DNA of 49,065 nt. Origin: Bacteroidales bacterium. GTDB lineage: Bacteria; Bacteroidota; Bacteroidia; Bacteroidales; Muribaculaceae. Each line of letters begins with the position of its first letter. Position 1 is the stretch's first letter. Under the pieces are notes generated by a model. The model saw nothing but the letters and a program-made list of their open reading frames with translations. It made no database searches and had not been told where the DNA came from. The stretch is taken from positions 1 through 49,065 of the forward strand of contig JAAVFS010000072.1 in assembly GCA_014800605.1 (NCBI GenBank), given 5' to 3'. Below, piece after piece: positions 3,458 to 7,725 of the stretch. Made by a program: the position numbers and the translations under genes.

Positions 3458-4765
3458 TTGGATACTGTCCCTCTTGCGATTGCGCATTTTGAGTTGCCGC
3501 AGATTGTGGCGCTCGCTGTAGCTGTGCTCGCTCTTTTCCTCTCAGCGTTTATGTCAGGGAGCGAGATAGCATTCTTTTCTCTTACGCCCGAGACCCTCGA
3601 TGAGCTTGACGATACGCCTGAAAATCAGCGTATCCGTGCCATTCTGTCCGCACCTGAGCGGCTGCTGGCGACAATTCTGATCGGCAACAACCTGGTCAAT
3701 GTGACCATAGTCGTGCTCTGTAACTTCGCTTTGGGTCCGATTTTCAGCGGGATGAGCGAGGTGATGAGCTTCATCCTGCAGACGGTCCTGCTTACCTTCC
3801 TGATCCTGCTCTTCGGCGAAATCCTCCCGAAACTTCTTGCCAACAACAACCCCCTGCGCTGGGCTCATCGCGCAGTCGGGCCGCTCGCAGTGCTTCAGAA
3901 GCTGGTGTGGCCGCTGTCGAGCCTGCTGGTCAAGAGTACCTACATCGTCAATCGCGTAGTCACCAAGAAGCATGACAACATCTCGACCGACGAGCTATCG
4001 CAGGCCCTTGAGATCACCGACGTGGCCGAGGGTGAGAATAAGGAGATGCTTGAGGGAATCCTGAAATTCGGCGACACGACCGCCTCCGAGATCATGACGC
4101 CGCGTGTCGACATCACTGATATCGACATCACATGGGACTTCGAGCATGTGCTCGATGTGATCCGTACGAGCGGCTACTCGCGTCTGCCGGTCTACAGCAA
4201 GACCCAGGATGATATCCGCGGCGTGCTCTATTCGCGTGACCTCCTCCCGTATATAGGACCCGACAATCGTCTGCCGGCCAATTTCGAGTGGCAGGCGCTT
4301 ATCCGCGAGCCCTATTTCGTGCCCGAATCGCGAATGATTGATGACCTGCTTGAGGACTTCCGAAAACTCAAGAAGCATATTGCTATCGTAGTGGATGAGT
4401 TTGGCGGCACCCAGGGGGTAGTGACCCTTGAGGATGTCCTGGAGGAAATCGTGGGCGACATCAATGATGAATATGACGAGGAGGAGAAGACCTATAAGGA
4501 GCTTGGCAATGACACTTACATCTTCGAGGGACGAACCCTGCTCAATGATTTCTTCCGCGTGACAGGCCTGGATGAGAGTGACTATGCTCCTGTCATCGAA
4601 GACTGCGAGACGCTCGCGGGAATGCTTCTCTCAATCAAGGGGGATTTCCCCAAGGAGAAGGAGGCGCTCGTCTATGGCCGCTGCCGCTTCCTGATTCTTG
4701 ATATCGAACATCACCGTATCACCAGTGTCAGAGTCAAAGTGATGCCTGACATTCAGCAGGCCTGA
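3458..4765 (+). CDS. gldE: GldE-like CNNM/CBS-domain (hemolysin family) membrane protein
   Basis: N-terminal DUF21/CNNM membrane domain, CBS pair ('SEIMTPRVDITDID', 'FGGTQGVVTLEDVLEEIVGDINDEYD'); followed directly by a GldD-like gene. The start in the ORF track is TTG. Confidence 0.87.
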   Translation: MDTVPLAIAHFELPQIVALAVAVLALFLSAFMSGSEIAFFSLTPETLDELDDTPENQRIRAILSAPERLLATILIGNNLVNVTIVVLCNFALGPIFSGMSEVMSFILQTVLLTFLILLFGEILPKLLANNNPLRWAHRAVGPLAVLQKLVWPLSSLLVKSTYIVNRVVTKKHDNISTDELSQALEITDVAEGENKEMLEGILKFGDTTASEIMTPRVDITDIDITWDFEHVLDVIRTSGYSRLPVYSKTQDDIRGVLYSRDLLPYIGPDNRLPANFEWQALIREPYFVPESRMIDDLLEDFRKLKKHIAIVVDEFGGTQGVVTLEDVLEEIVGDINDEYDEEEKTYKELGNDTYIFEGRTLLNDFFRVTGLDESDYAPVIEDCETLAGMLLSIKGDFPKEKEALVYGRCRFLILDIEHHRITSVRVKVMPDIQQA

Positions 4766-4768
4766 CGT

Positions 4769-5359
4769 ATGTTACAACCGATGTCGAGCCGATATTATCC
4801 ATTAGCGGCCATTGCAGGTGCTGTGTGGCTCTGGATGGCTGTAGCCTGCTCGACATCACCATCGTCGTCCGATACGCCTGTGCCGCGCCAATATGCCTAC
4901 CATCGTATCGATGTGCCTGCCGCCGTTTATCGTGCGGACACTATCGGTGGAATTCCTGTCGAGCTCAACCAGTCTGCTCAATCAGTCGCGAATACTCCCG
5001 GTTGGCTTACAGCCGTCTATGACGGCCTTAATGCCGAGCTTTACCTCACACTGACACCCCTTAGCGCCGAAACGGAAGAGTCTCTGATAGCCAATCGCGT
5101 TGAGCGGCTGTCGATGAATACCGGTGGAGCGTCGACCGAAGTGGTCGAGAGCCGGAATGCCGGCGGGTGGGAGTGTACGCTCCTCGTCACCCCCTCGGGC
5201 TCGCCGACCCCCGTACAGTTTCTCGCTGTCGAGCCTGGCAAATGGATGCTGAGCGGTAGCGCCATGATTCAGGGTGCCACCTCGGCTCCGGCTGACTCCA
5301 TCCGCCCTGTGGTCGAGATGCTCAGACGCGATATCACTCACTTACTTATGACCTTATGA
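4769..5359 (+). CDS. gldD: Gliding motility lipoprotein GldD-like
   Basis: Lipobox near 'AVACS', 'TPVPRQYAYHRIDVP' N-terminal motif typical of GldD, immediately downstream of gldE. Confidence 0.75.
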   Translation: MLQPMSSRYYPLAAIAGAVWLWMAVACSTSPSSSDTPVPRQYAYHRIDVPAAVYRADTIGGIPVELNQSAQSVANTPGWLTAVYDGLNAELYLTLTPLSAETEESLIANRVERLSMNTGGASTEVVESRNAGGWECTLLVTPSGSPTPVQFLAVEPGKWMLSGSAMIQGATSAPADSIRPVVEMLRRDITHLLMTL

Positions 5360-6801
5360 AACGCGCGGATATCGATGGAATCGTAATACTCTCTCAGCCC
5401 CTCGGAGACTCGAGGCTCCCGAGACGCGAGCAAGAGAGACGTGTCGTCCGGCAGATGCTCAGCGAATACTATGGCCGCGACGTCGCTGTCAGCCATCATC
5501 CAGACGGAGCTCCCTTTCTGTCTGATATCCATGATGAGATTTCTATCAGCCACTCGGCTGATCAGGTAGTCATAGCCATAGGGCAGGACAAATGTTTCGG
5601 CATAGACACCGAGACCCTCCGCCCGCAGCTCGAACGTGTAAAGGAGAAATTTCTGTCACCCGATGAGCAGTGGCTCTTCCCGACACTTGCCGACAAGCTT
5701 TGGGCCTGGTCGGCCAAAGAGGCTGTCTACAAGGCTGCCCGCAGCGAGGGGTTGCCGCTCAAGAATATTCGCTTGGTCGGCGACTATGCCACTGTCGATG
5801 GTGGCGGAGTATATCGCCTGACCACTGTTGACTGTCAGGAAGATTCGCTCACGATTTTGGCAAAGGGAGTTACCCCGAAAGGGCGATTCGCGCCCTCGCC
5901 ATCGGGGCGGATGCACCTCGGCAACATCTTTTCGGCTGTCATGTCGTATCTCTCAGTGAAATCGCGCGGCGGCAAGTGGATTTTGCGTATCGAAGACCTC
6001 GATCCCCAGCGTTCTAAGGAAGCATTCACCCGTCAGATTGAAGATGACCTCCTCTGGCTCGGCATTGAGTGGGATGAGGGGGGGATTGCCGACATCGGCC
6101 CTGACGGTCCTTACCGCCAGAGCCGCCGGTCAGATATCTACGAAGAATATCTTAACCGTCTGAAGGCCACGGGATATACCTATCCATGCCGCTGCACACG
6201 CGCCGAGATTATGGCTACGCAGGCGCCCCATAGCGGCGATAGCCGCATAGTCTATGGCGGAAATTGCCGGCCGGCCACATTGCCTACCATCACCGCCGAA
6301 CCGGCCGATCCGCACGCTACACGCCTGTATGTGCCTGACAGAGAGATTACATTCGTCGACCGTACCTACGGAGTGCAGTCTACCAATCTCGCTACCGACA
6401 GTGGCGACTTCATAGTGCGCCGGGCCGATGGAGCGTGGGCATATCAGCTCGCGGTCGTGGTGGATGATGCGCTGATGGGTGTGACGGAGGTTGTGCGCGG
6501 CAGCGACCTGCTGATGTCGTCGGCGCAGCAGATATATCTCTATCATCTGCTGGGACTTAATGCGCCCGAGTGGGCTCATGTGCCTCTGCTGACGGCAGCT
6601 GACGGGCGCCGTCTGGCCAAGCGCGACCGCTCGATGGCAATGGATAGCCTGCGTGAACTTTACACACCCGAGCAGCTCTTAGGTCGTGTAGCCCGGCTTG
6701 CCGGCTTCAACCCTTCCGGGGCCGCAATGTCGCTCCCCGAACTGCTCGACGCCTATCGTCTTCTTCCGGCTAACAGCACCATGACACTCTCAGTAGACTG
6801 A
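5356..6801 (+). CDS. Fusion protein: 4'-phosphopantetheinyl transferase (about aa 1-170) + glutamyl-Q tRNA(Asp) synthetase (about aa 174-481)
   Basis: PPTase motifs 'FGIDTE' and 'WAWSAKEAVYKA'; GluQRS motifs 'GRFAPSPSGRMHLGNIFSAVMSYL', 'WILRIEDLDPQR', 'YPCRCTRAEI...YGGNCR', 'DGRRLAKRDRSM', in one uninterrupted frame. Confidence 0.9.
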   Translation: MKRADIDGIVILSQPLGDSRLPRREQERRVVRQMLSEYYGRDVAVSHHPDGAPFLSDIHDEISISHSADQVVIAIGQDKCFGIDTETLRPQLERVKEKFLSPDEQWLFPTLADKLWAWSAKEAVYKAARSEGLPLKNIRLVGDYATVDGGGVYRLTTVDCQEDSLTILAKGVTPKGRFAPSPSGRMHLGNIFSAVMSYLSVKSRGGKWILRIEDLDPQRSKEAFTRQIEDDLLWLGIEWDEGGIADIGPDGPYRQSRRSDIYEEYLNRLKATGYTYPCRCTRAEIMATQAPHSGDSRIVYGGNCRPATLPTITAEPADPHATRLYVPDREITFVDRTYGVQSTNLATDSGDFIVRRADGAWAYQLAVVVDDALMGVTEVVRGSDLLMSSAQQIYLYHLLGLNAPEWAHVPLLTAADGRRLAKRDRSMAMDSLRELYTPEQLLGRVARLAGFNPSGAAMSLPELLDAYRLLPANSTMTLSVD

Positions 6802-6915
6802 GACCTCGTTTCCAATATTAGTTAATGCCGGTGAAGGGAACCTAATAATCGAAGATTATAGCGCGGACAGGAGTTCGGAACCGGTCAATACGACCATCTT
6901 GGAGAAGGCGAAGAG

Positions 6916-7725
6916 TTACTTGCCGAGATCTTTGAGAGAAGCTCCGATGTGATATACATCTTCGATAATTATTAGAAAGCGATCGTGGGCTTTATTGTAT
7001 TTGTGGAGCGTGATGCCTGGATACTGTTCGTTGTGCTTGTCCACATCCTGGCGCAGCTGCCGAGATATTTGACCATCGTAGATGTCAACGGTTACTCCCG
7101 GCCGACGCTTGGAAAGCTGGACTAATACTGTATCGTCAATATAATTGTCGATAATTACTATTCTTTTAGTTGCCTGCCGGATAAGGTCAGCTACAAGTGC
7201 ATAGGCATCGAAAATCTGCCCGTCGAAGAACACTCCCTCCTTGGGTTGAAGTGATGATTTGACAAAGAAATCGACCCTCTCTTCAAGTTGACAGAGTTGG
7301 CGGTCATGCTCCAACAATCGCCTGTCAATTCTATCTTCAAGCTGCATCAGGCGCTGATTTATCGAATAGCCGCGCAGCAGATAATCTTTCAACACCTTAT
7401 TGGCCCATTGGCGGAACTGAGTTCCTCTCAAAGACTTAACTCTGTATCCGACGGATATTATCACATCGAGGTTGTATAATTTTGTACGATACTTCTTCCC
7501 ATCTGTTGCAGTTAGTAAGGATTCCTTACTAACTGAATCCTCAACCAACTCACCTTCCTTGAATATATTACGTGTGTGAAGTGTAATGTTGTTTCTTGTG
7601 GTTTGAAACAATTCAGCCATCTGAGCTTGAGTGAGCCATACCGAATCATCCGCCACTCTTACATCAAGAGCTAAGGTATTATCCGGCTGATAGAGTATAA
7701 TCTCGTTAGATTGGTTCTTATCCAT
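6916..7725 (-). CDS. rhuM: RhuM-family DNA-binding protein with C-terminal PLD-like domain; apparently shortened by an in-frame TAA
   Basis: 'VWLTQAQMAELFQTTRNNITLHTRNIFKEGEL', 'KKYRTKLYNLDVIISVGYRVKSLRGTQFRQWA'; C-terminal 'HDRFLIIIEDVYHIGASLKDLGK' stops in mid-motif. Confidence 0.85.
   Translation of the reverse strand: MDKNQSNEIILYQPDNTLALDVRVADDSVWLTQAQMAELFQTTRNNITLHTRNIFKEGELVEDSVSKESLLTATDGKKYRTKLYNLDVIISVGYRVKSLRGTQFRQWANKVLKDYLLRGYSINQRLMQLEDRIDRRLLEHDRQLCQLEERVDFFVKSSLQPKEGVFFDGQIFDAYALVADLIRQATKRIVIIDNYIDDTVLVQLSKRRPGVTVDIYDGQISRQLRQDVDKHNEQYPGITLHKYNKAHDRFLIIIEDVYHIGASLKDLGK

Follow-up and report, generated by a model that had tools for sequence, protein, structure and literature searches.

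The window analysed here, a stretch of 49,065 nucleotides from a Muribaculaceae genome, contains a gldE-gldD operon that continues into an open reading frame encoding two enzymes, a 4'-phosphopantetheinyl transferase (PPTase) and a glutamyl-Q tRNA(Asp) synthetase (GluQRS), in a single protein. This frame (5356-6801, forward strand) runs from an ATG to a TGA and codes for 481 aa with zero internal stops, and each of the remaining five frames contains 5-24 stops over the same interval. The stop codon of the gldD-like gene overlaps the start codon of the fused gene (ATGA). The features discussed below are the following:

3458-4765, forward strand: gldE, upstream in the same operon, with an uncertain start codon (TIGR03520, 482 bits, cut-off 376)
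4769-5359, forward strand: gldD-like lipoprotein gene (PF25593, 47.7 bits, cut-off 27; below the TIGR03512 cut-off)
5356-6801, forward strand: fused PPTase-GluQRS gene, one open frame of 481 aa (orthologue at L023:4001-5449)
5356-5868, forward strand: PPTase part, aa 1 to ~171, with the last beta-strand at aa 164-172 (ACPS match, Sfp profile match, AlphaFold2 model)
5596-5613, forward strand: FGIDTE, with the metal-binding acidic pair D84 and E86 (conservation in standalone homologues)
5707-5733, forward strand: WSAKEAVYK, the PPTase catalytic motif, with W118, K121, E122 and K126 (conservation in standalone homologues)
5857-5883, forward strand: junction LAKGVTPKG, aa 168-176, comprising the PPTase end, a few linker residues and a native-like GluQRS start (codons, standalone termini)
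5881-6801, forward strand: GluQRS part, aa 176-481 (TIGR03838 match, fold matches, conserved positions)
5914-5925, forward strand: HLGN, the class I HIGH motif in the form of the HXGN GluQRS subgroup (sequence; PMC3542578)
5986-6003, forward strand: RIEDLD, with L215 at the position of the GluRS threonine (alignment with Ile47 of E. coli YadB)
6187-6267, forward strand: zinc site pattern of GluQRS, C278, C280, Y300 and C304 (sequence and alignment with 1nzj)
6610-6624, forward strand: RLAKR, the KMSKS-type loop (sequence)

An earlier note on this DNA had described a single frame carrying both enzymes, and both domains were indeed recognized above curated cut-offs. The Pfam family ACPS matched aa 81-134 with 28.5 bits (cut-off 25), and tRNA-synt_1c, the catalytic domain of class I Glu/Gln tRNA synthetases, matched aa 177-455 with 172.5 bits; the NCBIfam equivalog model for GluQRS, TIGR03838, scored 299.6 bits on the second half, as compared to a cut-off of 276.7. 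Every motif named in that note is present: FGIDTE (aa 81-86), WSAKEAVYK (118-126), HLGN (187-190), RIEDLD (211-216), CRC (278-280), YGGNC (300-304) and RLAKR (419-423).

A protein search across 297 genomes of the family retrieved the same fusion, again with no stops, in a second species of the genus, G015 (CAMWHE010000010.1, locus L023), where the match covers positions 3-479 of the query at ~80% identity. Searching relatives for this architecture, as the earlier note had advised, thus found it in the same genus. An end-to-end alignment of the two fused proteins has 381 of the 479 positions identical (79-80%), and gldE-gldD lies directly upstream of the fusion in both genomes. G015 is a metagenome-assembled genome that is 97% complete; the window genome is fragmented and 85% complete.

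In the PPTase half, the catalytic and metal residues of the GxDxE and WxxKExxxK motifs (D84, E86, E122 and K126) are present. Among 40 standalone PPTase homologues D84 is kept in all 40 and E86 in 39, and W118, K121, E122 and K126 are each found in 40/40; overall, the fused PPTase retains 22 of the 23 positions that are conserved among these homologues. D84 and E86 presumably correspond to D107 and E109 of Sfp. A profile built from these PPTases matched Sfp (1qr0) with E=5.8e-21, and an AlphaFold2 model of aa 1-174, built from a PPTase-only alignment, reached a pLDDT of 96.9 and a pTM of 0.92. When this model was compared with the PDB, the best match by E-value was the Sfp-CoA-PCP complex 4mrt (TMq 0.69), and PptAb 6qyg was matched with a TMq of 0.75. 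As modelled, the PPTase half has the complete two-half Sfp fold. Its C-terminal strand (...SLTILAK in the window, ...SVTVLAR in G015) is the same last strand that is seen in the standalone PPTases of the genus (...EVTVLVIPRQ, ...SATILCTPI), and just a few C-terminal residues have therefore been replaced. The earlier suspicion of a trimmed PPTase end is incorrect: the half stops only a few residues away from where the genus's standalone PPTases do, and its model shows a whole fold.

One PPTase-family match per genome was found in 8/8 genomes of the genus, and in the window genome and G015 this match is the fused copy. The check for another PPTase that had been proposed thus returned none beyond the fused copy in these two genomes (85% and 97% complete, respectively). 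A single acyl carrier protein (ACP) is present in the window genome. The cell probably has no PPTase other than the fused one, and this enzyme is therefore probably essential, as judged from its role in producing holo-ACP.

The GluQRS half is whole as well. It retains 134 of the 141 positions conserved among 46 homologues, and its structure model matched the E. coli GluQRS structures 4a91 and 1nzj with target-normalised TM scores of 0.81 and 0.84, respectively. Its HLGN places it with the HXGN subgroup of GluQRS, which was defined in PMC3542578. According to the same study, the threonine of GluRS (Thr133 in M. jannaschii) is replaced in GluQRS by Ile, Leu or Val (Ile47 in S. flexneri); L215 of the fused protein aligns with position 47 of YadB and is thus a GluQRS-type residue. 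The C-terminal anticodon-binding domain of GluRS is absent, with ~26 residues between the end of the match to the catalytic domain (aa 455) and the end of the frame (aa 481). The KMSKS-type loop reads RLSKR in 79 and RLAKR in 5 of 87 homologues.

The window genome contains one GluQRS-type gene, the fused copy, in addition to GltX. In G015 one GluQRS over the cut-off was found, again the fused copy, together with two weaker matches that are GltX-like and GlnS-like as judged by length and score. Since no other PPTase or GluQRS was found in either genome, the fused halves are the sole candidates for their respective jobs. The earlier note had also called for a check of tgt and queuosine genes, and tgt is present in the window genome (TIGR00430, 450.9 bits, over the cut-off).

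Several standalone GluQRS proteins of the family begin with M...TP(V/K/R)GRFAPSP (for example MNTVTPVGRFAP in L065). The VTPKGRF of the window fusion, and the VTPTGRF of its counterpart, are therefore probably a remnant of the last part of the native GluQRS N-terminus. Codon 168 is TTG in both fusions and codon 172 is GTG in G015, so that internal initiation at these codons may yield a separate GluQRS product in addition to the full-length protein. In the full-length alignment MAFFT laid standalone PPTases over the GluQRS half, and the PPTase half rested on 2 sequences; the domain arrangement in the full-length model (pLDDT 84.4, pTM 0.83) is accordingly left out of the evidence.

In six other genomes of the genus the gldE-gldD-PPTase operon is intact and separate from gluQ. 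The gluQ gene itself was found in five of these six, the sixth genome being 56% complete. In three of them it lies behind a shikimate-kinase-like gene (a name assigned by eye from the sequence), an AlaDh/PNT-type gene and an RNase H gene, and in the remaining two it occupies two further, different places.

The gene behind the fusion (6916-7725, reverse strand) encodes a protein with a RhuM-type N-terminus (PF13310), and the N-terminus of its G015 counterpart (L122:2555-3457) is of the ORF6N type (PF10543). The C-terminal half (FDAYALVADLIR...HDRFLII) is common to both, pointing to a swapped N-terminal domain. At ~6855-6918 (reverse strand) an in-frame stop in the window is followed by 19 codons in the same frame whose translation looks like the C-terminal end of the G015 counterpart (LFAFSKMVVLTGSELLSAL after the stop, as compared to LFAFSRMEVMTGSELLAGL in G015), so that the window gene is shortened.

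The fused form was found in 2 of ~133 GluQRS-bearing genomes of the 297-genome Muribaculaceae sample, a count made by hand from the search table that includes partial genomes. No further PPTase-GluQRS fusion was found in a 393-genome sample of the order. In such searches, only the length of the open frame would reveal a fusion whose PPTase is very diverged. The fusion is thus rare, and it is also recent. Several further candidates were rejected. The 618-aa frame of G118 (L085) has upstream of its GluQRS just an Arg/Pro-rich stretch that resembles out-of-frame DNA; the 1216-aa frame of G280 came to 303 aa in a second search, with the PPTase on the other strand; the sole PPTase match of G055 (535 aa) lies on another contig; and no PPTase homologue was found for the matches in L024 and L051, which start upstream of the GluQRS. 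GluQRS as such is common in Muribaculaceae (~133/297) but rare elsewhere in the sampled order, and Bacteroidetes are not among the phyla listed for GluQRS in PMC3542578.

Phylogenetically, the two fused GluQRS form one clade (support 100/100). In the best tree this clade falls outside the GluQRS of the genus, with a grouping within the genus not rejected (p-AU 0.279); a horizontal origin of the fused gluQ is possible on the basis of these trees. When GltX was included, the fused pair was placed next to GltX on a long branch, which probably represents long-branch pull. When GltX was left out, the pair remained firm and its sister branch had no firm support.

Elsewhere in the family, gldE, PPTase and gluQ stand in a row on one strand, unfused, at L049:2463-5472 (Muribaculum sp.) and L065:2398-5564, and in G280 the neighboring gluQ and gldE-PPTase are on opposite strands, in divergent orientation. 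The loci at which gluQ adjoins the gldE-PPTase genes without fusion include L121:1286-4729, and no gldD homologue was detected at L049, L065 and L121. The GluQRS of L049, L065 and G280 belong to a different clade from the fused GluQRS.

An assembly error had been raised earlier as a way in which the fusion could be refuted, and the assembly of the window genome is in fact fragmented (135 contigs). However, G015, which is an independent assembly of another species, shares both the junction and its surroundings with the window genome, at 79-80% identity. Because two divergent species have the same junction, sequencing or assembly error is excluded as its source, and we regard an artefact or a chimeric contig as vanishingly improbable. 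The fusion could also have harmed the GluQRS (or the PPTase), leaving one half as a decaying and now inactive appendage; the long branch of the fused GluQRS pair would fit such decay, as would six positions, conserved elsewhere, that are altered in both fusions. One of these lies in the KMSKS-type loop, where A replaces S, but this replacement is also seen in unfused homologues, and HLGN, the zinc pattern and the GluQRS signature residue are all retained. Comparison of the two fusions by the NG86 method gave, for the PPTase half, dN 0.207 and dS 1.322 (dN/dS ~0.16) and, for the GluQRS half, dN 0.108 and dS 1.84 (dN/dS ~0.06); both dS values exceed 1, making these rough estimates. Together with the lack of stops, these ratios show purifying selection acting on both halves, and decay of either is very unlikely.

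Functional coupling had likewise been suggested. In such a reading, activation of ACP for lipid synthesis would be linked to the glutamylation of queuosine-tRNA(Asp), for instance through common regulation or membership of one complex, and the fusion would be selected for that. In favor of this reading, PPTase and gluQ also adjoin, unfused, in another clade (L049, L065 and G280), and the fused form has been retained by two species whose proteins are ~80% identical; if coupling were true, the repeated neighborhood of gluQ and gldE-PPTase in the second clade would reflect the same pressure. However, just two of the ~133 GluQRS-bearing family genomes have the fusion, gluQ has unrelated neighbors elsewhere in the family, the linker is minimal (a few residues), and we know of no specific substrate shared by the two pathways. 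The suggestion is therefore left unsupported, the fusion being one event, and a recent one, confined to two species. Nothing in the data speaks for channelling or joint regulation, and we consider coupling unlikely. That selection favored the fusion as a link between acyl-carrier activation and glutamyl-queuosine tRNA(Asp), for instance by placing lipid synthesis under joint control with a translation signal, seems quite unlikely.

We thus consider it very likely that the PPTase-GluQRS gene is a genuine translational fusion of two complete enzymes tethered end to end. From the sequences and models we infer both activities, the production of a single protein and the route of origin. The N-terminal Sfp-like PPTase would move 4'-phosphopantetheine from CoA onto the acyl carrier protein, and the C-terminal GluQRS would activate glutamate with ATP and load it onto queuosine-34 of tRNA(Asp). 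These enzymes would act independently, being merely tethered. The fusion would have originated once, in an ancestor of the two species of this Muribaculaceae genus. In this simplest scenario gluQ, which is patchy and changes its neighborhood in the family, came to sit just behind the PPTase gene of the gldE-gldD-PPTase operon, and subsequent loss of the stop codon of the PPTase gene and of the start codon of gluQ joined the frames with almost no linker. Loss of a stop between neighboring genes was among the explanations offered earlier, and it is supported here.

In the literature searched for the PPTase-GluQRS pair, for GluQRS fusions and for GluQRS in Bacteroidetes we found nothing relevant beyond PMC3542578, and no description of this pair. 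The fusion offers a clean natural case in which two enzymes of unrelated pathways have become one continuous chain, with selection maintaining each half. More broadly, the common occurrence of GluQRS in Muribaculaceae and its differing neighborhoods there make gain, loss and movement of this gene testable. Automatic naming may assign such a fusion protein just one of its two functions.

The architecture is new, and both component families are well known. With the Sfp-like PPTases (PF01648) that are linked to gldE-gldD in Muribaculaceae, the fused PPTase has in common its catalytic residues, its fold and its place in the operon; the standalone PPTases of the genus are ~177-186 aa long, whereas the C-terminus of the fused PPTase continues into GluQRS. 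With GluQRS as represented by E. coli YadB and TIGR03838, the fused half shares the catalytic domain, the HXGN motif, the zinc pattern and the replacement of Thr by Leu. However, the known GluQRS and the other copies in the family are separate proteins of ~300 aa, and here GluQRS forms the C-terminal part of a protein of 481 aa. The closest resemblance in gene order is to the L049 and L065 loci, where gldE, PPTase and gluQ follow one another on one strand as at the fused locus; unlike in the fusion, the genes there are separated by a stop and a gap, and in L049 they lie in different reading frames.
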